Source: Micromonospora sp. HK10 (GTDB lineage: Bacteria; Actinomycetota; Actinomycetes; Mycobacteriales; Micromonosporaceae). Taken from it: a stretch of 64,000 nucleotides of DNA. The notes beneath the pieces are model-generated. The model did no database searches. It worked only from the letters and a program-made list of their open reading frames with translations, and had not been told where the DNA came from. The DNA lies in assembly GCF_000982955.1 (NCBI RefSeq), contig NZ_KQ058772.1, positions 61,970-125,969 of the forward strand, given 5' to 3'. A program made the position numbers and the translations under genes. The stretch's first letter is position 1, and every line of letters begins with the position of its first letter. Shown in pieces: positions 3,026 to 56,797 of this stretch.

Positions 3026-4260
<1,235 letters not shown>

Positions 4261-4300
4261 CGGTGCGGGAACGAGTTACGGAGACGGTGGTTTAACAGTC

Positions 4301-6847
4301 ATGCGAGTTTCTGTCAGTTGGCTGCGGGAGTACGTGGACCTCCCGGCCGACCTGCCCGCCGGCGACCTGGAGCGGGCGCTGGTCGACCTCGGCATCGAGG
4401 TCGAGTCCGTGGTGGACCTGCGGCAGTCCGTCACCGGCCCGCTGGTGGTCGGCGAGGTCCTGGAGATCGAGGAGCTGACCGGCTTCAAGAAGCCGATCCG
4501 GTTCTGCCGGGTGGACGTCGGGGCCGCCAACGGCACCGGCGAGCCGCAGGAGATCGTCTGCGGGGCGCGCAACTTCGCCCAGGGCGACCGGGTGGTGGTG
4601 ATCCTCCCCGGCGGCGTGCTGCCCGGCGACTTCCACATCGGCGCCCGCAAGACCTACGGGCGCAACTCCAACGGGATGATCTGCTCGGCCCGGGAGCTGG
4701 GCCTGGGCGACGACCACTCGGGCATCCTCGTGCTGCCCGAGCACCTCCCGGCCAAGCCGGGCGACGACGCGCGCCCGCTGATCGGCCTCGACGACGTGGT
4801 GGTCGAGCTGGAGATCACCCCCGACCGGGGGTACGCGCTGAGCCTGCGCGGCCTGGCCCGGGAGTTGGCGCACGCGCTCGACGTCGGCTTCCAGGACCCC
4901 GGCCTGCGGTCCGCCCCCGGGGCGACGGCCGAGCCGGCGTACCCGGTCGAGGTGCGCGACACGGTCGGCTGCGACCGGTTCGCGGCCCGGATGGTGCGCG
5001 GCGTCGACCCGGCCGCGGCCACGCCGGACTGGATGGTGCGGCGGCTCGCCGTCGCGGGCGTACGCAGCATCTCGCTGCCGGTCGACATCACCAACTACGT
5101 GATGCTCTGCCTCGGCCAGCCGATGCACGCCTTCGACGCCGACCGGATCAGCGGTCCGCTGGTGGTGCGCCGCGCCGAGCCGGGGGAGAAGCTGACCACC
5201 TTGGACGGGGTGAACCGCACGCTGACCGCCGAGGACATGGTGATCTGCGACGACACCGGGCCGATCTCGCTGGCCGCGGTGATGGGGGGCGAGACCAGCG
5301 AGGTCGTCCCCACCACCACGAACGTGCTCTTCGAGGCGGCGCACTGGGACCCGGCCATGGTCGGCCGGACCGCCCGCCGGCACAAGCTGTTCAGCGAGGC
5401 CGCGAAGCGCTGGGAGCGGGGTGTCGACCCGGCGCTGCCGCTGGTCGCGCTGGAGTTCGCCGTGCAGTTGCTCACCACCCATGGCGGCGGGACGGCCGGT
5501 GCGGAGATTCTCGACATCGACCACGTGCGGCCGCGTACCCCGGTGACCCTGCCGGTGGACCTGCCGTCGCGCCGGGTCGGTGTGGCGTACCCGCCGGAGC
5601 GGGTGGTCGAGCTGCTGGAGCACGTCGGCTGCACCGTCACCCGGGGCGGCGACCGGCTCGGCGAGGACCCCGGTGAGGCCGGGGTCGCGGCCGGCGGTGC
5701 CGAGGTGCTGAGCGTGACCCCGCCGACCTGGCGGCCCGACCTGACCGACCCGGCCGACCTGGTCGAGGAGGTGGTCCGCCTCGACGGGTACGACCGGGTG
5801 CCGTCGGTGCTGCCCACCGCGCCGCCCGGCCGGGGCCTGACCTGGCAGCAGCAGCGCCGCCGGTCGGTGGCCCGGTCGCTGGCCGAGCGCGGGTACGTCG
5901 AGGTGCTGGCGCACCCGTTCGTCGCCACCGAGCTGGCCGACCAGCTCGGCCTGCCCGCCGACGACCCGCGCCGCCCGGCGGTGCGGGTGGCCAACCCGCT
6001 GTCCGAGGAGGAGCCGCTGCTGCGCACCACGCTGCTCGGCCCGCTGCTCGGCATCCTCAAGCGCAACGTCGGCCGGGGTCAGCGGGACGTGGCGATCTAC
6101 GAGATCGGCGTGGTCTTCCACCCGCGTCCGGGCGCCGGCGCCCCGCCGGCCATGGGCGTCGACCGGCGCCCCACGGACGAGGAGTTCGCCCGCGCCGACG
6201 CGGTGGTGCCCGACCAGCCGCGGCACGTCGCCGTGGCGCTGACCGGGGAGCTGGACCCAGCCGGCTGGTGGGGCGCGGGCCGCCCGGCCGGCTGGGCGGA
6301 CGCCGTCGAGGCCGGCCGGGCGGTGCTCGCCGCCGCCGGCATCCCCGCCGGGCAGGTCACCGTCCGGGCCGCCGAGCGGGCCCCCTGGCACCCCGGCCGC
6401 TGCGCCGAGCTGCTGGTGGACGGCAGCACCGTCGGGTACGCCGGCGAGCTGCACCCGAACGTGCTGGCCACGCTGGAGCTGCCCCGGCGGACCAGCGCCA
6501 TGGAGCTGAACCTGGACGCGCTGCCGGCCGCGCCGCTGGTGGCCGGGCCGGCCATCTCCACCTTCCCGCCCGCCCTCATCGACGTGGCCCTGGTGGTGGA
6601 CGAGTCGGTCCCGGCCGCCGAGGTGGAGCGGGCCCTCGTCGAGGGGGCCGGCACGCTGCTGGAGGACGTCCGGCTCTTCGACGTGTACGCGTCCGCGCAG
6701 CTCGGCGCGGGCCGCCGGTCGCTGGCGTACAAGCTGACCTTCCGGGCCCCGGACCGCACGCTCACCGTCGAGGAGGCGGTGGCGGCCCGGGACGCGGCGG
6801 TGGCCCGGGCGGCGGAGCGGTTCGGCGCCACCCTGCGCGGCGCCTGA
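4301..6847 (+). CDS. pheT: Phenylalanine-tRNA ligase beta subunit
   Basis: 848 residues, normal for bacterial PheT. It begins with the PheT N-terminal segment MRVSVSWLREYVDLP, then an OB-fold tRNA-binding domain (residues 45-155), B3/4 editing domain containing VDITNYVMLCLGQPMHAFDADR, B5 domain, the catalytic-like core and a C-terminal ferredoxin-fold anticodon-binding domain (FPPALIDVALVVDESVP to the end). It partners PheS. pheT is normally followed closely by argC in actinobacteria; here 14.6 kb of accessory genes intervene. Confidence 0.96.
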   Translation: MRVSVSWLREYVDLPADLPAGDLERALVDLGIEVESVVDLRQSVTGPLVVGEVLEIEELTGFKKPIRFCRVDVGAANGTGEPQEIVCGARNFAQGDRVVVILPGGVLPGDFHIGARKTYGRNSNGMICSARELGLGDDHSGILVLPEHLPAKPGDDARPLIGLDDVVVELEITPDRGYALSLRGLARELAHALDVGFQDPGLRSAPGATAEPAYPVEVRDTVGCDRFAARMVRGVDPAAATPDWMVRRLAVAGVRSISLPVDITNYVMLCLGQPMHAFDADRISGPLVVRRAEPGEKLTTLDGVNRTLTAEDMVICDDTGPISLAAVMGGETSEVVPTTTNVLFEAAHWDPAMVGRTARRHKLFSEAAKRWERGVDPALPLVALEFAVQLLTTHGGGTAGAEILDIDHVRPRTPVTLPVDLPSRRVGVAYPPERVVELLEHVGCTVTRGGDRLGEDPGEAGVAAGGAEVLSVTPPTWRPDLTDPADLVEEVVRLDGYDRVPSVLPTAPPGRGLTWQQQRRRSVARSLAERGYVEVLAHPFVATELADQLGLPADDPRRPAVRVANPLSEEEPLLRTTLLGPLLGILKRNVGRGQRDVAIYEIGVVFHPRPGAGAPPAMGVDRRPTDEEFARADAVVPDQPRHVAVALTGELDPAGWWGAGRPAGWADAVEAGRAVLAAAGIPAGQVTVRAAERAPWHPGRCAELLVDGSTVGYAGELHPNVLATLELPRRTSAMELNLDALPAAPLVAGPAISTFPPALIDVALVVDESVPAAEVERALVEGAGTLLEDVRLFDVYASAQLGAGRRSLAYKLTFRAPDRTLTVEEAVAARDAAVARAAERFGATLRGA

Positions 6848-6862
6848 CGGTCGTACCTCGCC

Positions 6863-6902
6863 CCGGTGGCGGGCCGGCGCGTTCGCGGCGGTCCGCCACC
6901 GG
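6863..6902. terminator. Bidirectional terminator after pheT
   Basis: CCGGTGGCGG (6863-6872) pairs perfectly with CCGCCACCGG (6893-6902), a 10-bp stem with a 20-base loop, between the convergent ends of pheT and the small gene at 6904. Confidence 0.6.
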
Positions 6903-6903
6903 C

Positions 6904-7137
6904 TCAGCGGTCCGGGTGCCGGCGGCGGAAATCCTGGTAGGTCTCGTTGGCCAGCTCGATCTCGCGGACCTGGGCGGCCAGCTCGGCCCGCCGGATCTCG
7001 GCGGCCGCCCGCTCCCGGGCCAGCCGCAGCTCGTGCCGCCGGTCGCGGGCCCGCGCCCAGCCCCGCACGGCGGCCCAGGCGATCCAGCCGCCCGACGCGG
7101 CGAGCCCGGTCACCACGAAGGCGAGCAGGAAATCCAT
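6904..7137 (-). CDS. Small single-pass membrane protein, unknown
   Basis: 77 residues starting MDFLLAFVVTGLAASGGW. One membrane segment (residues 3-25) is followed by a charged Arg/Glu-rich helix likely to form a coiled coil (residues 30-65). Start chosen because GGAGGGAGG lies eight bases upstream. It is 22 bases downstream of the ABC permease gene on the same strand and may be co-transcribed. No known family recognised. Confidence 0.6.
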   Translation of the reverse strand: MDFLLAFVVTGLAASGGWIAWAAVRGWARARDRRHELRLARERAAAEIRRAELAAQVREIELANETYQDFRRRHPDR

Positions 7138-7159
7138 CTCGACGCCTCCCTCCGCCCCG

Positions 7160-8002
7160 TCAGCCGACGTCCCGGCGGGCGGCCAGCCAGCTGCCCGCGC
7201 CAAACATGACCAGAACGTAGCCCAGCAGCACCACCACCGGCAGCACGGCGCTGGCCGACTCCAGCACTCCGGGGGTGCCGCCGTCGAACTGGGAGCGGGC
7301 CCCCAGCGCGCCGGCGAGCGCGCCGGAACTCGGGGCCAGCAGCACCTTCTGCACCACGGTCAGCGGGCTCAGCGCGAGGGCGAGCGCGCTGACCGCGTTC
7401 TCCAGGACCAGCGTCCAGACCAGACCGACGGCGATCGCCGTGGTGGCGCCCCGGAACGCGATGGCGAGGAACCAGCCCACCGCGGCGTGCGCGGTGCAGA
7501 TCAACCAGGCCGCCGCGACCGCCGCCAGCAGCCGGCCGGCCGACGGCCAGTCGGCGGCGCGCCCCTCGGCCGCGGCCAGCGAGCCGGTGGCGACCGCCAG
7601 GGCCGCGAAGGTGAGCACGGCGACCAGCAGGGTCAGCCCGCAGAGCACGACCGCCTGCCCGAGCATCACCTGCACCCGCCGGGGGCGCTGGGTGAAGACC
7701 AGGTTCCAGGTCCCCCAGCGGTATTCGTTGCCCACCACCAGCGCGCCGAGGATCACCAGGATGGCGCCCCCGAAGAGCGGGAACAGCCCGATCCCGGTCG
7801 GCACCAGCTGGCCCGGCAGGACGGCGGCGAGCAGGGACTCGGCGGACTCCGCCTCCTTCGGGTCCCCGGCCAGCGCCAGGTGCACCAGGTAGGGCACCCC
7901 GATGCCGAAGGCGAGGGCGAGCAGGAGCCAGGTCGTGCCGACCGTCCACACGGCCGGGCGTTTGCGGTCGGCGAACCAGGCCGCCCGGACGGCTGCGATC
8001 AT
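7160..8002 (-). CDS. ABC-2 type transporter permease
   Basis: 280 residues with about six hydrophobic membrane segments, beginning MIAAVRAAWFADRKRPAVWT, the layout of ABC-2 permeases. The segment VVGNEYRWGTWNLVFTQRPRR (around residue 85) is typical of the first cytoplasmic loop of this family. The start overlaps the stop of the ATPase gene by ATGA, so the two proteins form one transporter. Its place next to the RiPP cluster, divergent from it, suggests export of or immunity to the product; this is an inference, since nothing in the sequence fixes the substrate. Confidence 0.85.
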   Translation of the reverse strand: MIAAVRAAWFADRKRPAVWTVGTTWLLLALAFGIGVPYLVHLALAGDPKEAESAESLLAAVLPGQLVPTGIGLFPLFGGAILVILGALVVGNEYRWGTWNLVFTQRPRRVQVMLGQAVVLCGLTLLVAVLTFAALAVATGSLAAAEGRAADWPSAGRLLAAVAAAWLICTAHAAVGWFLAIAFRGATTAIAVGLVWTLVLENAVSALALALSPLTVVQKVLLAPSSGALAGALGARSQFDGGTPGVLESASAVLPVVVLLGYVLVMFGAGSWLAARRDVG

Positions 8003-8982
8003 CGGGTGCCTCCCGTGGTGGTGGCCGGCTCCGCCGGCTGCTGCCGGCTGGGCGCGGTCAGTTCCAGGAACGCCTCCTCCAGGGAGTGCCGCAGGGGGCG
8101 CAGCTCCCGGACGTCGATGCCGGCCTGGACCAGCCGCCGGTTGAGTTCGGCGGCCAGCGCCGGGTCGGTGACCACCCGCAGCCGTCCGTCCACCGGCTCC
8201 ACGGCCCGGACGCCCGGGTGCCCGCGCAGGCACGTCGCGGCCGCGTCGAGCGGGTCGGCGTCGAACAGCAGCACCGTCTGCCCCAGCGTGCCGCGCAGGT
8301 CGTCGGGGGTGCCGTCGGCGATCAGCCGGCCCTCGTCGATGACCACGATCCGGTCGCAGATCTGCTCCACCTCGCCCAGCACGTGGCTGGAGAGCAGGAC
8401 GGTGCGGCCGGCGCGGCCGAGCGCGCGCAGCAGCTCGCGGATGTCGCTGACCCCGGCCGGGTCGAGTCCGTTGGTCGGCTCGTCGAGGATCAGCAGGCTG
8501 GGCTCCTTGAGCAGGGCGGCGGCCACGCCGAGGCGCTGTTTCATGCCCAGCGAGTAGGTGCGGAACGGCGAGTCGGCCCGCTCGCTCAGGCCCACCTCGG
8601 CGAGCACCCGGTCGGCGGCGGTGTCCGGCACGGCGGCGTAGCGGGCGGCCAGCCGCAGGTTGTCCCGGCCGGACAGGTGCGGATAGAACGCCGGCGACTC
8701 GATCAGGGCGCCCACCCGGGCGAGTGCCCGCGGCGCGCCGGGCGGGTGGCCGAGCACCCGGATCCGGCCGCTCGTCGGCCGGACCAGCCCGACCAGCATC
8801 CGCATCGTGGTGGTCTTGCCGGCCCCGTTGGGGCCGAGGAAGCCGAGCACCTCGCCCTCGTGCACGCGCAGGTCAAGGCCGTCCACCGCGGTGACGCCGC
8901 CGGGATAGCGTTTGGTCACCTCATGAACTTCAATGGCAAATCGGTCATTCCTCAACGTGCCACCGCAATCGTCCGATGCCAC
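7999..8982 (-). CDS. ABC transporter ATP-binding protein
   Basis: 327 residues. Walker A GPNGAGKT (residues 50-57), signature YSLGMKQRLGVA, Walker B SLLILDEPTNGLDP and the H-loop SSHVLGEVEQ are all present, followed by a C-terminal domain (about 240-310) common in drug-type (DrrA-like) ATPases. The GTG start at 8982 lacks a strong ribosome binding site; the protein core begins at IEVHEVTKRYPGG. It pairs with the permease that follows. The promoter must lie in the 432-base gap shared with the RiPP operon. Confidence 0.9.
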   Translation of the reverse strand: MASDDCGGTLRNDRFAIEVHEVTKRYPGGVTAVDGLDLRVHEGEVLGFLGPNGAGKTTTMRMLVGLVRPTSGRIRVLGHPPGAPRALARVGALIESPAFYPHLSGRDNLRLAARYAAVPDTAADRVLAEVGLSERADSPFRTYSLGMKQRLGVAAALLKEPSLLILDEPTNGLDPAGVSDIRELLRALGRAGRTVLLSSHVLGEVEQICDRIVVIDEGRLIADGTPDDLRGTLGQTVLLFDADPLDAAATCLRGHPGVRAVEPVDGRLRVVTDPALAAELNRRLVQAGIDVRELRPLRHSLEEAFLELTAPSRQQPAEPATTTGGTR

Positions 8983-9414
8983 GCCGAGAGCCCACCGATC
9001 GGATTTTCCTTCGCGTTCATCTCGGCGCCCTTCGCATTCCCGACCACATCACAGGGTTATTTTCCTTGGCCCGAATTCAGCTTCGCTTTAGGACACGTTA
9101 AGTGATGGTCCCGGCCCCGGCCCGGTGATCGCGCCGGCATCGCCAGCCGTTCGGCGACCAGCCGTCGCCGAGGCGGGCACAGCCGCTCTGACCTGCGGTG
9201 GCGTGGTCGACGCCCACAGGGTATCGGAGGTCGATCGACTGCGGAAGATCCGATGTCGGGGCTTCGCCGCGTTTTCTGTCCTAACCGCAGCTCAATGCAC
9301 ATCAATTTGCTTACGGGGCTGATCGGCTCGAAACAATCTGTTGACGAATGACATGACCTTGGGCAGCATGAAGACGCTTTCGAGACGGTCGAAGTCGTTG
9401 TCATGGGGGGTCGG
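8983..9414. promoter_or_regulatory. Divergent promoter region, transporter / RiPP operon
   Basis: A 432-base gap, lower in G+C than its surroundings, between the divergent ABC transporter and the RiPP operon. For the rightward operon the best promoter is TTGACG (9341-9346), 17-base spacer, CAGCAT (9364-9369). No convincing gene or tRNA is visible in it. A promoter for the leftward transporter must also lie here but I cannot pin it down. Confidence 0.45.
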
Positions 9415-11547
9415 ATGAGCCAGCCGCCGGACGGTGCGACAAACCTGGAAATGCGTCCCAAGCTGCGGCACGACGTGGTCTTTCTGGACGCGCCGGCCGG
9501 GGCGTACCTGCGCGGGCCGGACAATGCCTTCCTGATCAAGGGCAGATCGGCGTTCCGCTGGTTGACGTCGCTGAGTCCCTACCTGACCGGCGAGCACACC
9601 CTCGCGCAGCTCACCGCGGCCCTCGACCCCGGTCAGCGGCGCACCGTGCTCACCCTGGTCCAGGCCCTGCTGGCCCGCGGCTTCGCCAAGGACGCCGGCG
9701 ACCGCAGCCCGCTGCCCGAGCCGCTGGCCCGCCGCTTCGCCGCCCAGATCGAGTTCATCGACCACGTCGCCGACGACCCCACCGGGCGCTTCGCCCGCTT
9801 CCACGCCGCCCGGGTGGCGCTCTGCGGCGGGGGACCGGCGCTGCTCGCCGCCGCGAGCGGGCTGCTGCGCAACGGCTGCGTCCAGCTCGACCTGTACCCC
9901 GACGACGGGCCGGCCGGCTACGCCGAGGCGCTGCGCCCCGAGCTCGCGGAACTGGACGCCGACGGGCTGGTCGCGCAGGTGCGCTTCCCCGGCGGCCCGC
10001 CGGAGCTGTCCACCGTGGACGCGGTGCTCTGCTGCGCCGGCCCGGACGGCCTGGCCCGGCTGGCCGAGCTGGCTCGCGCCGCCCACCGGGACGGGCCGCT
10101 GCTGGTGCCGGTGACCTGGGACGGTGACCGGGCGGTGGTCGGCCCGACCGTCGCGGCCGGGCGTACCCCCTGCTGGCACTGCGCCCAGCTGCGGCTGGCG
10201 GCCGCCGCGGACCCGGCCGTGGCCGCGGAGTTCTGGCGCCACCTCGCGCTCGGCGGACCGCCGGCGGCGCTGCCCGAGGTGACCGCCCGGATGCTCGGCA
10301 ACGCCGCCGCCTTCGAGCTGTTCCGGGCGCTCACCGGCGCCGTCGCGCCGGACACCGCCGGCGGGGTGCTGCTGCTCGACCCGGCCACCCTGGAGTCCAC
10401 CCGGGAGCGGGTGCTGCCGCACCCGGCGTGCCCGGTCTGCCGGGAGGTGGCGGTGACCGAGCCGGCGCCGCCACCCGCCTCCGACGACGAGACCTACCAG
10501 CGGGCCGAGGCGCTGGTGACCCCCAACGCCGGGGTGTTCACCCGGTTCGTCGACGACCCGCTGGAGCAGGCGCCACTGAAGACCGCCCGGCTCCGGCTGC
10601 CCGGCCGGCGCGGCCCCCGCGAGGTGACCGCCTTCGACGTGCACACCGTGATGGGCGCCCGGCTCGCCGCCTACCGCGCGGCCGTCCGGGACCACGCCGC
10701 CCGCCACGCCGACCCGGCCGCGGCGGTGACCGCCTCAGCGGCCGAGCTGCGCGAGCGGGGCGAACACCCGGTGCCCTGGCGGGAGCTGGTGCCGACCGCC
10801 GCCCCGCCCGACGCCGACACCCGGCGCGTCCCCTGGCTGCCGGCGACCGTGCTGGGCGGGGCGGACCGGGTCCTGGTGCCGGCGGCCGTGGCCCTGCCGA
10901 CCTCCGCGTACAACGCCGACGGGTGGGCCGAGCCGACCGTGGCGGGCGCCGCCGCCGGCGGCTCCCCGGACGAGATGATTGACCGGGCACTGGCCGACGC
11001 GCTCGCCTACCACGCGCTGCTCGCCGCCCTGCGCGGCCGGGCCGAGGCCCGGCCGGTCGGGGAGGAGGCGCTGGTCGCCGACGACGACACGGCCTTCGTG
11101 GTCAAGGCCGCCCACCGGTTCGGCCGCCGGCTGTCGGTGTACGCCCTGACCGGCGCCGAGCCCGCCCACGCGGTGCTCGCGGTGGCCGCCTCGCCCGGTG
11201 GCGACGACCCGGACTGGGCACTGGCCGGCGGGTACGACCCGGTCGCCACCCGGCTCGCGGCGGTCCGCGACGTGGTCGGCCGGGCCCAGGTGCGGCACTT
11301 CGAGGACGCGGTCGCCGACCTCGGCGACCCGGTGCTGCGTGACCTCGACCCGGCGGCGCTCGCCGCGACCGCCGGCCCCGCCGTCCCGGCCGGTGCGGCC
11401 ACCGACCGGGCCGCCGTGCTGGCCGCGCTGGCACGGCGGGGAATGAGCGCGCTGCTGGTCGAGACGACCACCCGGGACGTCCGGGCCACCGGGGCCTTCC
11501 GCAGCGGGGTCGTCCTGCTGCGCCGGCCCGCCCCGGCGGCCGACTGA
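9415..11547 (+). CDS. TOMM ThiF-like leader-binding partner protein (F protein)
   Basis: 710 residues. Residues 13-95 resemble a PqqD-like RiPP recognition element (winged helix) that would bind the precursor leader. Residues 125-345 form a ThiF/E1-like Rossmann part (RVALCGGGPALLAAASGLLRN) with two zinc-ligand pairs, CWHC (253-256) and CPVC (339-342). The C-terminal 350 residues look like a degenerate YcaO-like domain (SAYNADGWAEPTVAG, EMIDRALADALAYHALLAAL). This is the architecture of Ocin-ThiF-like proteins such as TbtF, which present the substrate to a partner YcaO cyclodehydratase. The YcaO partner is encoded at 12545. ATG 9415 was preferred to ATG 9403 because GGGGGG precedes it. Confidence 0.85.
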   Translation: MSQPPDGATNLEMRPKLRHDVVFLDAPAGAYLRGPDNAFLIKGRSAFRWLTSLSPYLTGEHTLAQLTAALDPGQRRTVLTLVQALLARGFAKDAGDRSPLPEPLARRFAAQIEFIDHVADDPTGRFARFHAARVALCGGGPALLAAASGLLRNGCVQLDLYPDDGPAGYAEALRPELAELDADGLVAQVRFPGGPPELSTVDAVLCCAGPDGLARLAELARAAHRDGPLLVPVTWDGDRAVVGPTVAAGRTPCWHCAQLRLAAAADPAVAAEFWRHLALGGPPAALPEVTARMLGNAAAFELFRALTGAVAPDTAGGVLLLDPATLESTRERVLPHPACPVCREVAVTEPAPPPASDDETYQRAEALVTPNAGVFTRFVDDPLEQAPLKTARLRLPGRRGPREVTAFDVHTVMGARLAAYRAAVRDHAARHADPAAAVTASAAELRERGEHPVPWRELVPTAAPPDADTRRVPWLPATVLGGADRVLVPAAVALPTSAYNADGWAEPTVAGAAAGGSPDEMIDRALADALAYHALLAALRGRAEARPVGEEALVADDDTAFVVKAAHRFGRRLSVYALTGAEPAHAVLAVAASPGGDDPDWALAGGYDPVATRLAAVRDVVGRAQVRHFEDAVADLGDPVLRDLDPAALAATAGPAVPAGAATDRAAVLAALARRGMSALLVETTTRDVRATGAFRSGVVLLRRPAPAAD

Positions 11548-11600
11548 GCCACCACGTCAGTGGTTTCGGCGAGGCACGCACCACGAGAGGAGGTGGAAAC

Positions 11601-11783
11601 ATGCCGATCACCCTGAACGACGAGCTCCGCGAGCTGGAGACCGAGACCTTCGAGATCGAGGAGGTCGAGGACGGCGGCGAGGCGCTCGCCGCCACCAGCT
11701 CCAGCTGCTCCTGCTCCAGCTGCTGCAGCTGCAGCACCTCGAGCTGCTGCAGCACCAGCACCAGCACCTCCAGCTGCGGCTGA
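11601..11783 (+). CDS. RiPP precursor peptide 1 (Ser/Thr/Cys core)
   Basis: 60 residues. The acidic leader (1-31) carries the element ELRELETETFEIEEVE, like thiazolylpeptide-type leaders, and the core (32-60) has 29 residues: 15 Ser, 8 Cys, 5 Thr and one terminal Gly. Nearly every core position could become an azole or a dehydroamino acid. The ribosome binding site GAGAGGAGG is ideal. Residues 33-51 are identical to residues 33-51 of precursor 3. Leader cleavage probably falls near A30-A31. It is the first of three precursors between the F-protein gene and the YcaO gene. Confidence 0.88.
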   Translation: MPITLNDELRELETETFEIEEVEDGGEALAATSSSCSCSSCCSCSTSSCCSTSTSTSSCG

Positions 11784-11963
11784 CCGGGTGGACGGGGTTG
11801 CCCCCGACGCTGACGATTTCCGGTCCCCGGTGGGACGCGCACGAACCGCACCATCCGCCGCCGGCCGACACCGGCGAGTAGCCCCTGCGTGCCTCCGCAA
11901 CCACCGTGGTGGTGCGCGCAGACCACCGACGACCGGCTCGAAACGCGGCTCAAGGAGAGGCCT

Positions 11964-12182
11964 GTGCCCACACAACCCCCGACATCCGGCGTGCTGTCCG
12001 ACTCGGTCCGCAGCGAGCTGCGCGACCTGCAGACCGAGACGTTCGAGGTCGAGGACATCGCTGATCTGTCCGCCGACCTCATGGACATCTGCAGCAGCAG
12101 CACGAGCACGTCGAGCTGTTCCAGCTGCAGCACGTCCAGTTGTTGCAGCTGCACCTCGTCGAGTTGCAGCAGCACCAGCTGA
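11964..12182 (+). CDS. RiPP precursor peptide 2 (all Ser/Thr/Cys core)
   Basis: 72 residues from GTG 11964, which follows GGAGAGG at 11954-11960. The leader is longer (about 42 residues), with ELRDLQTETFEVEDIADLSA, and the core from residue 43 has 30 residues that are all Ser (18), Cys (7) or Thr (5). It has the same leader signature as the other two precursors but a differently ordered core and no terminal Gly, so it should give a distinct product. An upstream ATG at 11889 is in frame but would add a non-homologous 25-residue extension without a ribosome binding site. Confidence 0.85.
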   Translation: MPTQPPTSGVLSDSVRSELRDLQTETFEVEDIADLSADLMDICSSSTSTSSCSSCSTSSCCSCTSSSCSSTS

Positions 12183-12258
12183 GCCCGGCGCCGTCGGTCG
12201 CTCCGGACGGCCGGCCGGCACCGTGGCCCCTGACCGACCAGAGGGGAGGTGGAAGGAA

Positions 12259-12444
12259 ATGCCGGAACTGACTGAGGAACTGCGCGCGCTGGAGACGGAG
12301 ACGTTCGAGATCGAGGACGTCGACGCGATCGACGCGATGGTCATGGACTGGTCCAGCTCCAGCTGCTCCTGCTCCAGCTGCTGCAGCTGCAGCACTTCGA
12401 GCTGCTGCAGCAGCAGCACCAGCACCGGATGCGGCGGCGGGTGA
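12259..12444 (+). CDS. RiPP precursor peptide 3 (Ser/Thr/Cys core)
   Basis: 61 residues. Leader MPELTEELRALETETFEIED plus VDAIDAMVMDW, then a 30-residue core (32-61) with 15 Ser, 8 Cys, 3 Thr and a Gly-rich C-terminus (GCGGG). A GGGGAGGTGGAAGG ribosome binding site directly precedes the ATG. Nineteen consecutive core residues (33-51) match precursor 1 exactly and the DNA there is also nearly identical, which points to recent duplication or gene conversion. A perfect 11-bp hairpin follows the gene. Confidence 0.88.
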   Translation: MPELTEELRALETETFEIEDVDAIDAMVMDWSSSSCSCSSCCSCSTSSCCSSSTSTGCGGG

Positions 12445-12465
12445 GCCAGCCCACCGCCTTACCGT

Positions 12466-12492
12466 CCCCGCCGGCGAGCCACGCCGGCGGGG
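12466..12492 (+). terminator. Hairpin between precursor genes and YcaO gene
   Basis: CCCCGCCGGCG (12466-12476) pairs perfectly with CGCCGGCGGGG (12482-12492) around the loop AGCCA. No T tract follows, so it may act as a partial terminator or as a 3'-stabilising stem that keeps precursor transcripts more abundant than those of the modification enzymes. Confidence 0.55.
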
Positions 12493-12544
12493 CACCGGTA
12501 GCCCAGCAACCCGCCCAGTCCGCGAGCGCAGACAGGTGAACCGC

Positions 12545-14566
12545 ATGATCGTCGATGTCCGGACCACCTCCACGGGGTGGGACAGCAGCCTCAAACAGCT
12601 CGGCGAGGCGTTCCACGAGCGATTCCAGGACCGGACCCGGCAGCCGGCCGACCCGGACGGGCCGCTGCACGGGATCACGGTCCGGATCGCCGCCCTCGGC
12701 GTCACCGACGCGTACGCCGACGGCGGGGAGGACCTGACCGGCACCGTGGTGCCGATCTGGCTGCACGGTGCGACCGCCCTGGTCGGGCCACGGTGGACGA
12801 ACACCGCCACCGGCACCGACTCCGGGGCCGCCACCGATGCCGGGGCCGCCGACTCCGGCACCGAGGCCGACGGTGAGCGGCCCGGGCCGTGCCCGCTCTG
12901 CACCCAGCGCCGCTGGCAGGCCATCCGGGTCCGCGAGGAGCGGCATGCCCTGGAACACCAGGCCCGGGTCGGCACGGTCGCCGCCCTGCCGCACCTGACG
13001 CCGTTCGCGATCGACGCGCTGTGGCAGCTCCTGCTGGACGCCAGCCGGCCCCAGCCGGCCCGGCCCGGCGTCGGCCGGCTACGCCAGCTGCGCATGGACA
13101 CCCTGGAGACCACCGTCGTCGAGGTACTGGCCGACTCCGAGTGCCCGGCCTGCGCGCGTCCCCGCCCGGACAGCGCGGCGGCGGCCGTCATTCCGCTCAC
13201 CAGCCGGCCCAAGCCCGACCCCGACGCGTACCGGCTGCGCTCGGCCGGGGAGCTGGACCTGCCGGTCGCCGCGCTGGCCAACCCGGTCGCCGGGGCGCTG
13301 GGCGGCGGCGCGCTGCGCGCCTACAACGCCACGGCGACCGCGCCGGTGACCGGCTACTTCCGCATCCGCAGCCGCTACGACCTGCACGAGATGTGGTGGA
13401 GCGGGCACGCCAACAGCTACGGCGGCAGCGAGACGTACGCGCTGCTGGAGGGGTTGGAGCGGTACGCCGGCCAATTCCCCCGGGCGCGCCGGACCACGGT
13501 CTTCGACAGCTACGCCAACCTCGCCCCGGACGCGCTGGACCCGGTCGGCCTCGGCTACCACCCGGCCTTCTACCAGGGCCACGGGCTCTACTACCAGCCG
13601 TACGCGCCGGACGCGCCGATGCCCTGGGTGTGGGGCTGGTCGCTGCGCGACCGGGCGCCCCGGCTGGTGCCCGAGCAGCTCGTCTACTACCTGGACCGGC
13701 GCACCGACCACCGCAAGTTCGTCCAGGAGTGCTCCAACGGCTGCGCCAGCGGCAGCTGCCCGGAGGAGGCGCTGCTGCACGGCATGCTCGAACTGGTCGA
13801 GCGGGACGCCTTCCTGCTCGCCTGGTACGGGTCGGCCCGGCTCGCCGAGATCGACCCGGCCACCTGCCGCGACGAGCGGGTGCACTTCATGCTCGACCGG
13901 GTCGACCTGCTCGGGTACGACATCCGGCTCTTCGACACCCGGGCCGACCTGCCGGTGCCGGTGGTCACCGCGGTGGCGGTCAAGCGCGGCGACGGACTCG
14001 GCCAGCTCTGCTTCGCCGCCGGCGCCAGCCTCGACCCCGACGACGCGGTCCGCGCGGCGGTCTGCGAGACCGCGTCCTACGTGCCCGGCTTCGACGAGCG
14101 GGTCGCCGCCAGCGAGCCGGAGCTGCGCGACATGATCCGGGACTACACCAAGGTCACCGAGCTGAGCCACCACGCCCTGCTCTACGGCCTGCCGGAGATG
14201 ACCCGGCACGCCGCGTTCCTCTTCGACGACCCGCCGCTGCGGTCGATGACCGACCTGTACGGCGACTGGCTGGCGAGCCGGCCGACCCACGACGACCTGC
14301 GCGCCGACATGGAGTACCTGTGCGGCCTGATCGCCGGCCTGGGCGGGGACGTGGTCGCGGTCGACCAGACCTGCCCGGAGCAGGAGGTGGCCGGCGTGCA
14401 CACGATGGCCGTGGTGGCGCCCGCCCTGGTCCCCATCGACTTCGGCTGGCAGCGCCAGCGGGTGCTCTGGAGCGACCGGCTGGCGCGGCACCTGGCCCGG
14501 GGCGCCCGTGGCCCCGACCGGCTCGGTGCCACCGGCCGCAACCCCCACCCGCACCCCTTCCCGTAG
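12545..14566 (+). CDS. YcaO cyclodehydratase (azoline-forming, fused)
   Basis: 673 residues. The N-terminal third is a cyclodehydratase partner domain with zinc-ligand pairs CPLC (116-119) and CPAC (200-203); from about residue 245 a full YcaO domain follows with the ATP-binding segments SETYALLEGLERYAG and EALLHGMLELVERDAFLL. It ends in NPHPHPFP, the proline-rich C-terminus typical of azoline-forming YcaO enzymes. It would use ATP to phosphorylate backbone amides and cyclise Cys, and perhaps Ser/Thr, of the precursors to azolines, with help from the F protein at 9415. ATG 12545 is chosen; GTG 12536 is in frame. The SagB-type gene starts 9 bases after the stop. Confidence 0.92.
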   Translation: MIVDVRTTSTGWDSSLKQLGEAFHERFQDRTRQPADPDGPLHGITVRIAALGVTDAYADGGEDLTGTVVPIWLHGATALVGPRWTNTATGTDSGAATDAGAADSGTEADGERPGPCPLCTQRRWQAIRVREERHALEHQARVGTVAALPHLTPFAIDALWQLLLDASRPQPARPGVGRLRQLRMDTLETTVVEVLADSECPACARPRPDSAAAAVIPLTSRPKPDPDAYRLRSAGELDLPVAALANPVAGALGGGALRAYNATATAPVTGYFRIRSRYDLHEMWWSGHANSYGGSETYALLEGLERYAGQFPRARRTTVFDSYANLAPDALDPVGLGYHPAFYQGHGLYYQPYAPDAPMPWVWGWSLRDRAPRLVPEQLVYYLDRRTDHRKFVQECSNGCASGSCPEEALLHGMLELVERDAFLLAWYGSARLAEIDPATCRDERVHFMLDRVDLLGYDIRLFDTRADLPVPVVTAVAVKRGDGLGQLCFAAGASLDPDDAVRAAVCETASYVPGFDERVAASEPELRDMIRDYTKVTELSHHALLYGLPEMTRHAAFLFDDPPLRSMTDLYGDWLASRPTHDDLRADMEYLCGLIAGLGGDVVAVDQTCPEQEVAGVHTMAVVAPALVPIDFGWQRQRVLWSDRLARHLARGARGPDRLGATGRNPHPHPFP

Positions 14567-14575
14567 GAGCAGCGC

Positions 14576-16177
14576 ATGCAGCAGGAGGCCCGCACGGTCG
14601 TCCGGGAGTACGCGGAGGCGGTGTTCCGCCGGGCGCGGACCCCGATGGAACCGCTCAACTACGAGGTCGACTGGGCCGACCAGCCCTCCCGGCACCTCAG
14701 CTACCCGGACGCCCCGCGGCTGCCGCTGCCGCTGGACGGGCCGCCGCTGCCCACGCTGCGCGACCTGTTCACCGGCGCGGGCCGGCCGCCGGCCGGCGGC
14801 TGGACGCTGCCCGCCCTGGCGACGCTGCTGCGGCTCTCCTACGGGGTACTCGACCGGCGGCTGACCGTGAACTGGAACCAGGACCTGGCGAAACGGACCC
14901 ACTTCGAGCACGCCGTCTGGGGTCGCGGCACCGCCTCCGGCGGCGGCATGTACCCGGTCGAGATCTTCCTGGTCGCCGGCGCCTCCGCGCCGCTGCTGCC
15001 CGGCGTCTACCACTACCACACCGGCCAGCACGTGCTGGAACGCCTGCTGCTGGGCGACGTCGCCGGGACCGTCCGGGCCGCGGTCGGCGACGCGGCGGGC
15101 GCGGCGGACAGCTTCCTGGTGGCGAGCATCCGGTTCTGGAAGAACTCGTTCAAGTACAACAGCTTCTGCTACCACGTGGTCACCCAGGACCTGGGCGCCC
15201 TGCTCGGCTCCTGGGACCTGCTCGCCCGGGGCCTCGGCGTGCCGCTGCCCCGGCTGCTCGGCTTCGACCCGGCCCCGGTGGACCGGCTGCTCGGCTTCGA
15301 CGGCGAGCGGGAGAGCGCCTTCGCCGTCGTGCCGCTGAGCTGGGCCGACGCCGAGCCGACCGGGGCGACCGCGCCGGCGCCGGAGACCCGGGTCCGGCAC
15401 CGGGCCTTCGAACGGTCCCGCCGGCTGCGCGAGTTCCCCGCGGTGACCGCGGTGCACCGGGCGGCGGCGGCCCCCGCCGTACCCGACCCGGACGCCCTGG
15501 TCGCCGCGGCGCCCGGCGACCTGCCGGGCGAGCCGGTGGCGCTGCCCGCGCCGCTGCTGGACCGGCTGGCGCGTCCCCTGTCGACGGTGCTGGCCACCCG
15601 GTCCAGCAGCTTCGGCCGGTTCCGCCGGCCACCCGAGCTGACCGCCGCCGAGTTGGGCACCACGCTGGCCTTCGCCACCGCCGGCCGGCACCACCCGGCC
15701 GACGTCGGGCTGCCCGCCGACGCGCCGCCGCTGACCCGGCTCTGGGTCTTCGCCAACCACGTCGACGGCCTGCCCACCGGCACGTACGCCTACTGCCCGC
15801 GCCGGCACGCGCTGCTGCCCGCCGCCGGCGAGCCGGCCGGGGGCATGTCCGCCTTCCTGCAACAGCAGTACTTCCTCACCAACTACACGATGGGTCAGGT
15901 CGGTGCCGTGCTGGCCATCTCCGGCCGGCTGGACGCGGTGCTCGACGCGGTCGGCCCGCGCGGCTACCGCCTGCTCAACGCCGAGATCGGCGCCGTCGCG
16001 CAGCGGACGTACTGCGCGGCCGCCGCCCAGCGGGTCGGCTGCGGCGCGGTGCTCGGCTTCGACAACGTCGCCATGGACGACGCCCTCGGCCTGACCGGCG
16101 GCGACGAGCGGACCGTGCTCTTCGTCCTGCTCGGCCACCACCCCGAGGACGTCGCCGACGTCGTCTACCGGCTGTGA
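14576..16177 (+). CDS. SagB-type FMN azoline dehydrogenase
   Basis: 533 residues with two tandem nitroreductase-like halves (about 85-260 and 330-533), as in thiopeptide dehydrogenases. N-terminal half: KRTHFEHAVWGRGTASGGGM; C-terminal half: FLTNYTMGQVGAVLAISGR and AEIGAVAQRTYCAAAAQRVG, the FMN-binding part. It would oxidise azolines made by the YcaO enzyme to aromatic thiazoles or oxazoles. The ribosome binding site GGAGCAGC precedes the ATG and the gene is closely spaced with its neighbours. Confidence 0.9.
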   Translation: MQQEARTVVREYAEAVFRRARTPMEPLNYEVDWADQPSRHLSYPDAPRLPLPLDGPPLPTLRDLFTGAGRPPAGGWTLPALATLLRLSYGVLDRRLTVNWNQDLAKRTHFEHAVWGRGTASGGGMYPVEIFLVAGASAPLLPGVYHYHTGQHVLERLLLGDVAGTVRAAVGDAAGAADSFLVASIRFWKNSFKYNSFCYHVVTQDLGALLGSWDLLARGLGVPLPRLLGFDPAPVDRLLGFDGERESAFAVVPLSWADAEPTGATAPAPETRVRHRAFERSRRLREFPAVTAVHRAAAAPAVPDPDALVAAAPGDLPGEPVALPAPLLDRLARPLSTVLATRSSSFGRFRRPPELTAAELGTTLAFATAGRHHPADVGLPADAPPLTRLWVFANHVDGLPTGTYAYCPRRHALLPAAGEPAGGMSAFLQQQYFLTNYTMGQVGAVLAISGRLDAVLDAVGPRGYRLLNAEIGAVAQRTYCAAAAQRVGCGAVLGFDNVAMDDALGLTGGDERTVLFVLLGHHPEDVADVVYRL

Positions 16178-16227
16178 CCCCCGCCCGCACCGACGACCCA
16201 CCGCCCGCATCGACGAAGGAGCAACCC

Positions 16228-19002
16228 GTGACGGTGTCCCTGCCCGCACCAGCGGTCACCGAGGTGTCCTGGCGGATGCCGGAGGTGTTCATGCTGCGTA
16301 CCGCCGGCCTGCCACTGGAGGTCGCCGACCGGCTCGCCTTCGACCAGAGCGCCGGGTGGGCGCGCCGGACCCTCGACCTGGAGGATCGGCTGCGGGCGGC
16401 CGGGCCGCCGCTGGCCGACGCGTTGCAGGAGGCGGTGGCCCGCAACCTCGACGACGACCGGCTGCGGCGGCGGCTGATCCGGCTGCGCCGGGACGTGTGG
16501 AACCTGCGCCGCCCCGACCCCGCCGACCCGGCGGCCTGGCCGGCCGGCCCGCTCGGCGACGGCACTCACCGGCTGCTGGTGGACTGGCTGGACACCTTCG
16601 CGGCCTACCGCCGGGAGTTGGCCGGCGGGGCGGCGGTGCTGGCCGCGGAGCTGGCCGACCGCCGGGAGGTGCTGCGCGACCTGGCCGACGACCCGGACCT
16701 GCGCGGCGGCATCCTGCTCGCCTCGCCGTCGCTGGACCAGTACCTGCCCACCTACCTGGCCGCGCCCGGCCGGCTCGGCAAGCGGGCCCGGCGGGTGGAG
16801 CGGTCGCTGCTGGAGTACGCGCTGCGTACCGCCTGCAAGACCAGCCCGTTCAGCCGGCTCACCACGGTCAACGTGGGCACCTTCGCCCCGCACGCCGGCC
16901 CGCTGCTGCACGTGGTGCCGGCCACCGGCCGCACCGGGGACGCGAAGCGGGGGGCGGCCCGGCTCAACCTGGCCGCGCTGGGCCGGCTGTCGGCGGTGGT
17001 CCTCGCCGACGAGACGCTCCGCGCGGACCTGCCGGTCACCGTCACCACTGGCTGGCGCATCGAGCGCGGCCGGCTGCGCTACCTGCGCCGGCGCCGCACC
17101 AGCTCGGAGGACGGCGAGGCGGCGATCACCCTGGAGTCGATCCACGAGTCGCTGTTCGTGCTGCCCACCGGCCGGGTCCTGCACGACATCCTGGCCGCGC
17201 TCGCCGGCGGCCGGGTGCGCCGGATGGCGGACCTGGTCGCCGAGTTGGCCACCGACGGCCGGCCGGCCGCCGAGATCGAGCAGTACCTGCACCACCTGCT
17301 GCGGGTGGGCCTGCTCGTGGTGCCCAACCTGCACCTGGACATCCACGCCGACGACCCGGTCGACGGTTACCGGCGGGCGCTGCGGGAGATCGGCCGCGAC
17401 TGGGCCGACCGGCTCGCCGAGCGGGTGGACACCGCCAACCGGCTCGCCACCGGCTACCCGGAGCGCGATCTGGCCGGGCGGCGCGCCGCGCTCGCCGACA
17501 TCCGCCGGGAGCTGGTCGCGGCCCACACCGAGCTGGGCCGCGCCGACGTGCCGACCCCGCGCACCCTGCTCTACGAGGACGCCACCCTGGTGACCCGGGC
17601 ACCGGTCACCGCCGACCGGGACCGGTGGGAGCGGGAGGTGCTGCCCGGCCTGCGGGCGCTGGCCCGGATCATGCCGGTGTTCGACATCAACCTGCCGCGC
17701 CGGCTGGCCACCAAGGGCTTCTTCGTGGCCCGGCACGGCGCCGGTGGCCGCTGCGACGACCTGCTCACCTTCGCCCACGAGTTCCAGCAGGACTTCTTCG
17801 AGCACTACAGCGGGCGGATGATGCGCCGCCGGGCGTTCGACGCCGACAACCGCTACGTGCGGCAGGAGAACTGGTTCCGGCAGCCGGAGATCACCGCGCT
17901 GGACGACGCCCGGATCGAGGTCGCCCGGCGGATGAACGAGGCGTACGACCGGCTGCCGGCCGACGCCGAGGAGCTGCGCCTGGACGGCGACTTCATGACC
18001 GCCGTGGCCGCCATGGTGCCGGACACCCTGGGCACGCTCGACCCGCGGTCGTTCTTCCTGCAGATCGCCGACCAGGGCGACCGGCACCGGGTGGTGGTCA
18101 ACCGGATCTACTCCGGGATGACCCTGCTCTTCTCCCGGTTCGCGCATCTCTTCGCCGACCAGGACCTGGCCGGGGCGCTCCGCGCCGAGTTGGCCCGGCT
18201 CGCGCCGCCGGGCGCGGTGCTCGCCGAGCTGAAGGGCGGCTACGACGCCACCAACCTGAACCTGCACCCGGCGGTCACCCCGTACGAGCTGGTCTGCCCG
18301 GGTGAGATCAGTTTCCGGCCGGCGGCCGAGCAGATCCACATGGACGACCTCAGCGTCGAGCACGACCCGGTGGCCGACCGGCTGCTGCTGCGCTCGCGTC
18401 GGCTCGACGCCGAGGTGATCCCCGTCTACCTGGGTTTCCTGCTGCCGATGGCGCTGCCCGAGGTGCAGCAGGTGCTGCTCACCTTCGCCTATCTGGGCAT
18501 GGCGCAGCCGGACCTGTGGGCGGGGACCACGGTGCCGCTGCCCGGGCACGGGATCGCCGGGTACCCGCGCATCGTGCACGGCGACCTGGTGCTGCAACGG
18601 CGGATGTGGAAGCTGCACCCGGACCACCTGCCGCCGCCGCGTACCCCCGACTGCGGCGACGCCGAGTGGTTCCTGGGTTGGCAGCGGTGGCGCCGCGACA
18701 ACGGCCTGCCCCGGCGGGTCTTCGCCACCCCGGAGGGCAGCCGGCTCACCCCGGCGGCCGACGACGGTCCCGCCCAGCCGGCCGGCCGGCCGGAGCACAA
18801 GCCGCTCTACGTCGACTTCGACAGCCACTTCTGCCTGCAACTGCTGGAGGCCACCGGGCGCGGCGCGGGCAGCCGGCTGGTGCTCACCGAGATGCTGCCG
18901 GACCGCGACGAGCAGGTGTTGCGCGGGCCGGGCGGCACCCACGTCACCGAACTGACCGTCGAGCTCAACGGCGTGCGCGCCGGAAAGGTGGTGCCCTCGT
19001 GA
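16228..19002 (+). CDS. LanB-type dehydratase, glutamylation protein
   Basis: 924 residues, matching the N-terminal (glutamyl-tRNA dependent) part of class I lantibiotic dehydratases. Visible family segments are EVFMLRTAGLP near the start, RRVERSLLEYALRTACKTSPFSRLT (in pieces, about 190-215), the central FDINLPRRLATKGFFVARHG, and near the end FRPAAEQIHMDDL and KPLYVDFDSHFCLQLLE. Such proteins transfer glutamate from Glu-tRNA to Ser/Thr side chains; the elimination step is encoded separately by the next gene, as in thiopeptide and goadsporin-type clusters. GTG 16228 follows GAAGGAG. Its stop overlaps the next start (GTGA). Confidence 0.88.
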   Translation: MTVSLPAPAVTEVSWRMPEVFMLRTAGLPLEVADRLAFDQSAGWARRTLDLEDRLRAAGPPLADALQEAVARNLDDDRLRRRLIRLRRDVWNLRRPDPADPAAWPAGPLGDGTHRLLVDWLDTFAAYRRELAGGAAVLAAELADRREVLRDLADDPDLRGGILLASPSLDQYLPTYLAAPGRLGKRARRVERSLLEYALRTACKTSPFSRLTTVNVGTFAPHAGPLLHVVPATGRTGDAKRGAARLNLAALGRLSAVVLADETLRADLPVTVTTGWRIERGRLRYLRRRRTSSEDGEAAITLESIHESLFVLPTGRVLHDILAALAGGRVRRMADLVAELATDGRPAAEIEQYLHHLLRVGLLVVPNLHLDIHADDPVDGYRRALREIGRDWADRLAERVDTANRLATGYPERDLAGRRAALADIRRELVAAHTELGRADVPTPRTLLYEDATLVTRAPVTADRDRWEREVLPGLRALARIMPVFDINLPRRLATKGFFVARHGAGGRCDDLLTFAHEFQQDFFEHYSGRMMRRRAFDADNRYVRQENWFRQPEITALDDARIEVARRMNEAYDRLPADAEELRLDGDFMTAVAAMVPDTLGTLDPRSFFLQIADQGDRHRVVVNRIYSGMTLLFSRFAHLFADQDLAGALRAELARLAPPGAVLAELKGGYDATNLNLHPAVTPYELVCPGEISFRPAAEQIHMDDLSVEHDPVADRLLLRSRRLDAEVIPVYLGFLLPMALPEVQQVLLTFAYLGMAQPDLWAGTTVPLPGHGIAGYPRIVHGDLVLQRRMWKLHPDHLPPPRTPDCGDAEWFLGWQRWRRDNGLPRRVFATPEGSRLTPAADDGPAQPAGRPEHKPLYVDFDSHFCLQLLEATGRGAGSRLVLTEMLPDRDEQVLRGPGGTHVTELTVELNGVRAGKVVPS

Positions 19003-21289: not shown

Positions 21290-21340
21290 GGCCAACCAAC
21301 CGGATGGATCGTCCCGGCACCCGGCCGCCCCGCCCACCCT

Positions 21341-21402
21341 TGTTGACCAAGGAGTTTGCGTCGGAGGCGGCGCAGGACCCGACGCAAACTCCTTGATCAA
21401 CA
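21341..21402. repeat. Long inverted repeat between RiPP operon and argC
   Basis: Bases 21341-21364 pair with 21379-21402 (24 bp with a single mismatch) around a 14-base loop. It could end transcription of the RiPP operon, or be a mobile REP-like palindrome. I recall similar GTTGATCAAGGAGTTTGCGTC palindromes from Micromonospora intergenic regions, but cannot verify this here. Confidence 0.7.
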
Positions 21403-21421
21403 GGGCGTGAGGGCCGGACGC

Positions 21422-21451
21422 CAAGTTCATGCAGTCGGGTGCATGAACTTG
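21422..21451. repeat. 12-bp perfect inverted repeat upstream of argC
   Basis: CAAGTTCATGCA (21422-21433) pairs perfectly with TGCATGAACTTG (21440-21451) around GTCGGG. It lies 55 bases before argC. The CATGCA core recalls actinomycete ARG boxes, so it may be an operator; it could equally be a terminator or a REP element. Confidence 0.5.
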
Positions 21452-21482
21452 CAGGGGGTGGGGCTTCGCTGCTAGTCTGCTC

Positions 21483-21494
21483 TGCATAGTCATG
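21483..21494 (+). promoter_or_regulatory. Possible ArgR operator at argC
   Basis: GCATAGTCATGC is a GCAT/ATGC dyad with a four-base spacer, 11 bases before the argC start and overlapping the region where transcripts should begin. ArgR-controlled arg operons of Streptomyces have CATGCA-type boxes at this position. The assignment is weak because the dyad is short. Confidence 0.3.
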
Positions 21495-21505
21495 CGGAGG
21501 TGGGT

Positions 21506-36661: not shown

Positions 36662-36758
36662 CGGTGCTCCTGGGCAGTTGTCAACTGTCCGATCGTTCAG
36701 GTGTGTCGACTGTTATGACCTTGGCCCGCCCCCCGCCGCCTCTGACAGACTCGCGATC

Positions 36759-53481: not shown

Positions 53482-53572
53482 CGGGGGCCTCCCGGAACTG
53501 GTTCTCTCGCCTACACCCCCAGCGTGGTCCGCGCCGCGCCGACCCGGCAGGGGCGCAGGACCGCACCGGCCC

Positions 53573-53586
53573 GGGACGAAGGTCCC
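53573..53586. promoter_or_regulatory. DosR-like box upstream of adh-pfl operon
   Basis: GGGACGAAGGTCCC is a perfect GGGAC-N4-GTCCC dyad, the core geometry of DosR/DevR boxes (GGGACTWWAGTCCC in mycobacteria). It is 92 bases before the alcohol dehydrogenase start, in a gap with no other gene. Confidence 0.5.
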
Positions 53587-54125: not shown

Positions 54126-54136
54126 CGTGCTGCCTC

Positions 54137-56797
<2,661 letters not shown>

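Follow-up and report, generated by a model that had tools for sequence, protein, structure and literature searches.

The locus described here raises the question of what kind of peptide is made when the core of a precursor consists almost entirely of Ser, Thr and Cys. The window (the whole stretch of 64,000 nucleotides from Micromonospora sp. HK10 that we analysed; contig NZ_KQ058772.1, positions 61,970 to 125,969) carries three such precursor genes, P1, P2 and P3, which lie in a RiPP cluster of about 7160-21289 between phenylalanyl-tRNA synthetase subunit genes (3178-6847) and an argC-like semialdehyde dehydrogenase gene (21500). A preliminary description had given the feature as 11601-12444, a span that does contain the three precursors and falls short of the whole unit. 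Judged by its sequence (Table 1), we think it quite probable that this is a compact RiPP cluster whose three Ser/Thr/Cys cores are predicted to become three long linear azole/dehydroalanine chains.

Table 1. Features of the cluster, with positions in the window.
Feature	Position	Strand	Basis and details
ABC-2-type permease, predicted export/self-protection	7160-8002	-	ABC2_membrane_2 24.6 bits, under cut-off 27.2
ABC transporter ATPase	7999-8982	-	ABC_tran 105 bits; conserved in L035-L038
F protein: predicted leader-binding domain and ocin-ThiF/E1-like domain	9403-11547	+	TIGR03882 75.8 bits, over cut-off
Precursor P1	11601-11783	+	60 aa; leader 1-31; core residues 32-60 at 11694-11780
Precursor P2	11964-12182	+	72 aa; leader 1-42; core residues 43-72 at 12090-12179
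Precursor P3	12259-12444	+	61 aa; leader 1-31; core residues 32-61 at 12352-12441
YcaO cyclodehydratase, leader-binding (TIGR03882) domain in front	12536-14566	+	YcaO 278 bits
SagB-type dehydrogenase, two SagB stretches	14576-16177	+	TIGR03605 125 bits, over cut-off; Nitroreductase
LanB glutamylation protein	16228-19002	+	Lant_dehydr_N 128 bits; solved chain 6ec7 E 1.7e-35
LanB_C protein, glutamate-elimination type	18999-20048	+	Lant_dehydr_C 167 bits; motifs HVRLRV, HMTNNR; tree position
M50 metalloprotease with HECAH, predicted leader peptidase	20045-21289	+	daptide_HExxH 175 bits, under cut-off 300

The motif ELRxLxTETFE(I/V)E lies in the acidic leader of each of P1, P2 and P3, and a purine run stands ahead of each start codon. 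By its translation P2 starts at a GTG directly behind AAGGAGAGG; the mechanical ORF finder begins it upstream at 11889 and places P3 inside a longer ORF (11788-12444). Ser, Thr and Cys make up 28 of the 29 residues of the P1 core (TSSSCSCSSCCSCSTSSCCSTSTSTSSCG), all 30 in P2 (CSSSTSTSSCSSCSTSSCCSCTSSSCSSTS) and 26 of 30 in P3 (SSSSCSCSSCCSCSTSSCCSSSTSTGCGGG), Gly being the sole other residue across the three cores. The shared leader, these counts and the lack of hydrophobic or aromatic core residues had been reported in the preliminary description, and the translations reproduce all of them exactly. Among the 361 window ORFs of at least 40 aa, P1-P3 alone reach at least 22 Ser, Thr or Cys in their final 30 residues, indicating that such ends are not a matter of chance; the two ORFs that come next, with 21 and 20, read the P1-P3 stretch in antisense. 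The earlier likening of the precursors to those of thiazolylpeptides holds for P2 (TIGR03892, 28.9 bits vs a cut-off of 25) and P3 (NF033400, 34.2 bits vs 30), whereas P1 reaches only 15 bits against the NF033400 cut-off of 30. PF19409 (Thiopep_pre) gave no match in the own genome, and as no control matched it either, this model is uninformative here. An RNA element or a plasmid origin was rejected, as Rfam at the gathering threshold gave no RNA element match in 6800-22000 and a search of plasmid sequences with the precursor stretch gave no near match.

The azole machinery is present, with a single YcaO protein and a SagB-type dehydrogenase whose models are both over cut-off. The YcaO protein also exceeds the cut-offs of TOMM_cyclo_SagD (297 bits) and TIGR03882 (61.8 bits), has MusD, LynD and TruD as solved relatives and ends in NPHPHPFP; the SagB-type protein is closest among solved proteins to 3eo7 (a putative nitroreductase), then to CyaGox and McbC. 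No Pfam family matched the F protein, which scores 82.6 bits with ocin_ThiF_like (under cut-off) and resembles the solved PbtF 8t19 at its N-terminus (E 1.1e-5). A split LanB accounts for the dehydratase, rather than the LanMbC (DUF4135) type: a glutamylation protein matching 6ec7, which we take to be TbtB, and a LanB_C protein of elimination type by motifs and tree. The protease scores 21.5 bits with Peptidase_M50, under cut-off, and by profile resembles the MJ0392 protease 3b4r (E 0.013) and PqqD (E 0.5); its sequence gives a weak hint of an N-terminal leader-binding domain. Counterparts of the permease lie at the same place in loci L035-L038 (73-81% identity), and the best NCBIfam matches of the ATPase, galliderm_ABC and drrA, are both under cut-off. 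The cluster proteins scanned include no LanC, and no acetyltransferase or ABC peptidase as in god.

Next to the cluster, the argC-like gene (21500-22507) also lies near it in two close relatives (L130 and L132) and in two loci with a distant, about 45%, version (L041 and L052), and none was found inside the stretch covered in the other fetched loci; its recurrence suggests a shared insertion site. Elsewhere in the window we observed a pyruvate-formate-lyase-like glycyl-radical enzyme with an adjacent radical SAM protein (49357-52391), adjoined by genes for an alcohol dehydrogenase and a PEP-utilising enzyme (52471-57565), as well as a 1741-aa subtilase with seven fibronectin type III stretches (36678-41903).

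Whether the LanB_C protein eliminates glutamate or closes a ring decides between a linear peptide and a thiopeptide. We aligned ten pyridine-synthase rows (nine of the ten matches over the NF045556 cut-off in 394 class genomes, and one weaker full-length match of 146 bits) with 34 other rows, of which ten are their partner elimination proteins and 24 are further LanB_C proteins, the window's among them. RxR after GxH together with HxxxNR near the C-terminus was present in all 34 of the latter and in 0 of the 10 pyridine-synthase rows. We assume these positions to be the glutamate-elimination residues of NisB, and the solved lantibiotic dehydratase 5ehk aligns with the LanB_C protein at both motifs. 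In a maximum-likelihood tree, the window's protein falls in a clade of 22 rows (100/99) and the pyridine synthases are grouped separately (100/100); the rows from L044 and L045 fall among thiopeptide elimination proteins, outside the window's clade. Among solved proteins, the LanB_C protein of the window is closest to the pyridine synthase TbtD (32 bits), which comes first by profile too, and no TbtC chain is among the solved matches listed by either comparison. Against this match, the motifs and the tree point to elimination.

A pyridine synthase could also be encoded elsewhere in the genome. In the own genome, which is 99.97% complete, the only gene that NF045556 matches is the LanB_C gene of the window, at a score under cut-off. 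Matches over cut-off occur in 7 of 160 genus genomes. The 21 genomes that carry a close relative of the cluster, own included, have none; in G699, one of these 21, a different contig gives a full-length but weaker match of 145 bits, and in another (G731) the LanB_C gene is in two pieces. By LanB_C pattern, tree and genome search, we found no [4+2] pyridine synthase, the enzyme that defines the thiopeptide class. Since the LanB_C protein is of elimination type and none of the 21 genomes has a pyridine synthase over cut-off, the likely products are several linear azole/dehydroalanine peptides rather than a thiopeptide.

We then looked at what accompanies LanB_C in other genomes. An alignment scan, with one genome per species, matched 148 stretches, the best 80 of which (78 loci) gave the results reported here. 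Among these best 80 of 148, the loci L130-L193 number 64 and include 55 with an M50 gene; out of all 78 loci, five (L182, L187, L189, L190 and L192) have a gene for which a pyridine-synthase HMM of our own build was the best model. None of these five has an M50 gene and no locus has both, the loci being related and not independent of one another. Four loci have neither gene (L180, L185, L186 and L193); the L180 stretch stops just behind the LanB_C gene, and that of L186 covers only about 1 kb upstream. HExxH is retained in 64 of 64 protease relatives among the matches listed, several of which come from the same genomes. Cycloaddition also releases the leader in thiopeptides and pyritides, as described in PMC9247985 and PMC10885120. 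If the products are linear as predicted, the system suggests that the exchange of a ring-closing enzyme for a membrane protease was the step between macrocyclic and linear products.

Within the genus, a LanB_C query at E 1e-30 found relatives in 41 of 160 genomes, and our statements on conservation concern loci found in this way. Identity is at least 83% in 21 and 42-46% in 18; the remaining two are a 106-residue piece (G211) and a relative at 33% beside a thiopeptide-like precursor (G700). The locus with the 106-residue piece (L124), in which no precursor was found, is perhaps a decayed cluster, and four genomes with the distant version (G241, G195, G724 and G658) have a single TGA each inside the LanB_C matched stretch. 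The absence of homologous precursors from related clusters would have spoken against the preliminary description; they are present, P1 and P3 in 21 of 21 arrays and P2 in 16 of 21. Amino-acid-variable codons are few in the cores (P1: 3 of 29, two being Cys/Thr exchanges; P2: 0 of 30, with 18 synonymous, n = 16; P3: 1 of 30), and in the 21 Micromonospora arrays the variable core sites at codon positions 1/2/3 number 6/7/18 in P1, 0/0/18 in P2 and 2/3/17 in P3. Ser is kept across switches between TCN and AGY codons in four columns of P1 and two of P3. Together with the mostly third-position variation, this indicates that the cores are not a triplet-repeat artefact. Comparison of pN/pS between core and leader (P1: 0.154 vs 0.137; P2: 0.000 vs 0.184; P3: 0.054 vs 0.112) revealed that the P2 and P3 cores are more constrained than their leaders and that the P1 core is not. 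The 99 precursor relatives that we collected share five-letter words with the query, largely from the core, and core identity among them is therefore biased.

Two arrays deserve separate mention. In L142 (3000-3150) the P2 leader is intact and is followed only by CSSTS as an in-frame core remnant, likely owing to a deletion between core repeats; a search by pattern found no P2 remnant in the other four P2-less genus arrays. L054 (8337-10216) holds an array of seven precursors, two of which (at 9043 and 9291) differ by one core residue.

Outside the genus the trio persists. Precursors were found in 27 of the 29 closest loci (L130-L158; best 80 of 148), and in L131 and L150 none lies within the stretch covered. 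Counting 28 precursor-bearing close loci, the window's included, all three core types occur together in 19 (best 80 of 148), 12 in the genus with the window and 7 outside (Jiangella, Haloactinopolyspora, Phytoactinopolyspora, two Kribbella, Sphaerisporangium and a record titled Streptomyces sp. SID13031). Four others have P1 and P3 without P2, four (Streptomyces, Actinacidiphila) have a single P1/P3-type gene without the GCGGG end, and L156 has no P1-, P2- or P3-type core. The genes run P1-P2-P3 in the genus and P2-P3-P1 in the remaining trios; L143 contains one more P1, and in L146 a further P1-type gene stands ahead of the others. The Acrocarpospora locus L156 (1825-3511) has five precursors, three with Tyr, Trp and Phe in otherwise Ser/Thr/Cys-rich cores. 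Across the best 80 of 148 LanB_C matches, our precursor filter was positive in 48 of 64 loci in L130-L193 and in 0 of 14 in L194-L207, and 78 of 124 precursors have at least 90% Ser, Thr or Cys in their last 20 residues.

The cores also contain a pattern in which Ser and Cys/Thr behave differently. We compared positions 2-24 of 16 distinct P1/P3-type cores, whose sequences are related; across the 28 loci, the P1/P3-type pattern excluded only the five L156 precursors and 19 P2-type ones. The 13 Ser columns never contain Cys or Thr, although the P1/P3-type pattern itself requires Ser at several positions, and the 2 of 208 cells that depart (Ala and Gly) are both in one aberrant L146 precursor; 2 of the 13 Ser columns thus vary too. 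Variation in the Cys/Thr columns affects four of ten (19 of 160 cells) and stays among Cys, Thr and Ser. The contrast between the two kinds of column has a Fisher p of 1e-5, which ignores kinship and comes mostly from columns 11 and 21. Since exchange of Cys for Thr takes two base changes by way of a Ser codon, its recurrence hints at two residue fates, in which Ser would become dehydroalanine and Cys or Thr an azole. Ser at positions 2, 3, 8 and 16, which is not before Cys or Thr, is conserved like the other Ser in P1/P3 cores. The placing of Ser before Cys or Thr (P1: 10/12; P2: 9/11; P3: 8/11) stands out weakly under shuffling (0.019, 0.16 and 0.064, respectively). In the three distinct P2-type cores, Ser alternates with Cys in column 24, with Gly in column 20 and with Thr in columns 22 and 29. 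These observations lead to the suggestion that the cores may hold a readable modification code, which P2-type cores would not strictly obey.

In the pathway that we propose, the F protein would bind the leader motif ELRxLxTETFE(I/V)E, the YcaO protein would cyclise Cys and Thr together with some Ser, and the resulting rings would be oxidised to thiazoles and (methyl)oxazoles by the SagB protein. The LanB_N protein would glutamylate Ser adjoining azoles, and the LanB_C protein would eliminate the glutamate to give dehydroalanine. The chain is predicted to remain open because no pyridine synthase is encoded; its leader would be removed by the M50 membrane protease instead of by cycloaddition, and the ABC transporter would export the products or shield the producer. 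The long polyazole/dehydroamino-acid chain foreseen in the preliminary description fits this gene set, in which azole and dehydration enzymes are encoded, the sole LanB_C protein is of elimination type and no pyridine synthase was found. We regard as unlikely the bolder proposal of a separate RiPP class, made of obligate three-component, open chains of about 30 residues in which practically every residue is azole or dehydroalanine, i.e., long conjugated ribbons nearly devoid of side chains, with a near-fixed azole/dehydroalanine pattern across actinobacterial families and release by an intramembrane protease that replaces the thiopeptide pyridine synthase.

Other products have to be weighed against linear azole/dehydroalanine chains. 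A true thiopeptide, in which the core closes a pyridine ring by a synthase encoded here or elsewhere, would account for P2 and P3 passing thiopeptide-precursor HMMs and for TbtD as the best solved match of the LanB_C protein, and SCSC...CCSCS resembles thiopeptide cores. We consider it very unlikely nevertheless, because the LanB_C protein has both elimination motifs and groups apart from the pyridine synthases, and because, were it the pyridine synthase, the cluster would have no elimination enzyme left. A distant synthase was rejected too, as none over cut-off was found in the own genome or the 20 related genus genomes, though G699 has the 145-bit match on another contig. Even less credible is a lanthipeptide-like product in which Cys captures dehydroalanine to form thioethers: a split LanB is encoded and Cys and Ser are plentiful in the cores, yet YcaO and SagB would use up the Cys, and the LANC_like matches of the genome are restricted to other contigs (C224, C38 and C221). 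Contig C224 (L105, 8907-14483) encodes a 1192-aa LanB-type protein (TIGR03891), a further TIGR03891 match and a LANC_like protein, and is a separate class I lanthipeptide-like locus; with these matches sitting at a separate locus and no LanC among the scanned cluster proteins, the lanthipeptide was rejected.

The extent of dehydration is less clear-cut. It is rather doubtful, though well within consideration, that dehydration in a linear azole peptide stops at the Ser residues that immediately precede an azole, or reaches even fewer, and leaves the other Ser free. Goadsporin has six azoles and only two dehydroalanines (Dha), the formation of which requires an azole at the next position (PMC5303826). 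In carnazolamide, every Dha immediately precedes an azole and Ser8, Thr13 and Ser30 are intact, and yet 8 azoles and 8 Dha, i.e., 16 sites, are found among its 20 core Ser, Thr and Cys (PMC10676384). By the precedent of both, Ser would be dehydrated where it stands before an azole. In P1, P2 and P3, only 10 of 15, 9 of 18 and 8 of 15 Ser, respectively, precede Cys or Thr, in favour of partial dehydration; the equal conservation of Ser 2, 3, 8 and 16 in P1/P3 cores argues the other way. The chances are only slightly short of even that the three cores are redundant, interchangeable products and not a cooperating trio. The close likeness of the P1 and P3 cores speaks for redundancy, as does the lack of P2 in 5 of 21 genus arrays; among the 28 close loci four have only the P1/P3-type genes of both ends and four a single precursor. 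Against redundancy, the three types co-occur in 19 of the 28 loci in two gene orders, and the P2 core is without amino-acid change in 16 genomes.

If the prediction of linear azole/dehydroalanine chains is true, few ribosomal peptides would be modified as densely as these products; five modification proteins and a protease would make them, and part of their modification pattern could be read from the gene. Of the 160 genus genomes, 21 carry a close relative of the cluster, filed under a thiopeptide-like name, and these relatives are so well conserved that they point to a definite target. It would also become possible to ask directly how split LanB enzymes select among many serines.

Several known systems share parts of this machinery. 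Thiopeptides such as thiomuracin (Tbt) and GE2270 (Pbt) are alike in the PbtF-like N-terminus of the F protein, the YcaO, SagB, TbtB-like and TbtC-like proteins and the related precursor HMMs; in contrast to them, the cluster has no pyridine synthase that we found, and an M50 protease gene adjoins its LanB_C gene. Thiopeptide cores are also shorter than the cores here. Goadsporin (God) and the related spongiicolazolicins, as described, combine YcaO azoles with split-LanB Dha that depends on a neighbouring azole and are without a pyridine synthase, like our cluster (PMC5303826; PMC4603692; PMC10676384). Goadsporin differs in having Val and Leu in its core, a leader likely removed by a peptidase-domain ABC transporter, and acetylation by GodH (PMC5303826), whereas our cluster has an F protein, an M50 protease, three Ser/Thr/Cys-dominated cores of 29-30 residues and no acetyltransferase among the scanned proteins. 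Coryneazolisins are, by their description, products of TOMM clusters that encode lanthipeptide-like dehydratases and lack the [4+2] enzyme; the same description sets them apart by two D proteins and a core of 10 Cys/Ser/Thr followed by other sequence (PMC4603692). Dehydrazoles, represented by carnazolamide, share the heavy azole and Dha modification with Dha before azole, but are described with a LanMbC (DUF4135) dehydratase and a nitrile-hydratase-like leader (PMC10676384) in place of the split LanB and short acidic leader found here. Daptides have their leader removed by an RRE-dependent intramembrane peptidase, MpaP/DapP, and differ in chemistry and core (PMC10036551); daptide_HExxH is the best NCBIfam match of our protease (Table 1).

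The kind of cluster is thus already known, as dehydratase-bearing TOMM clusters without a [4+2] enzyme were described by Cox et al. (2015) and NCBI models catch P2 and P3. The novelty implied by the preliminary description has to be lowered, since the precursor family is widespread and already named by NCBI, its members being called 'thiazolylpeptide-type bacteriocin' or hypothetical protein. Searches of openly licensed full-text papers found no characterised product, which a subscription paper could hold, and none of the core strings in openly licensed PMC papers. What is new, as far as the openly licensed literature shows, is the Ser/Thr/Cys trio across families, the elimination-only LanB_C clade and the mutual exclusion of protease and pyridine synthase.
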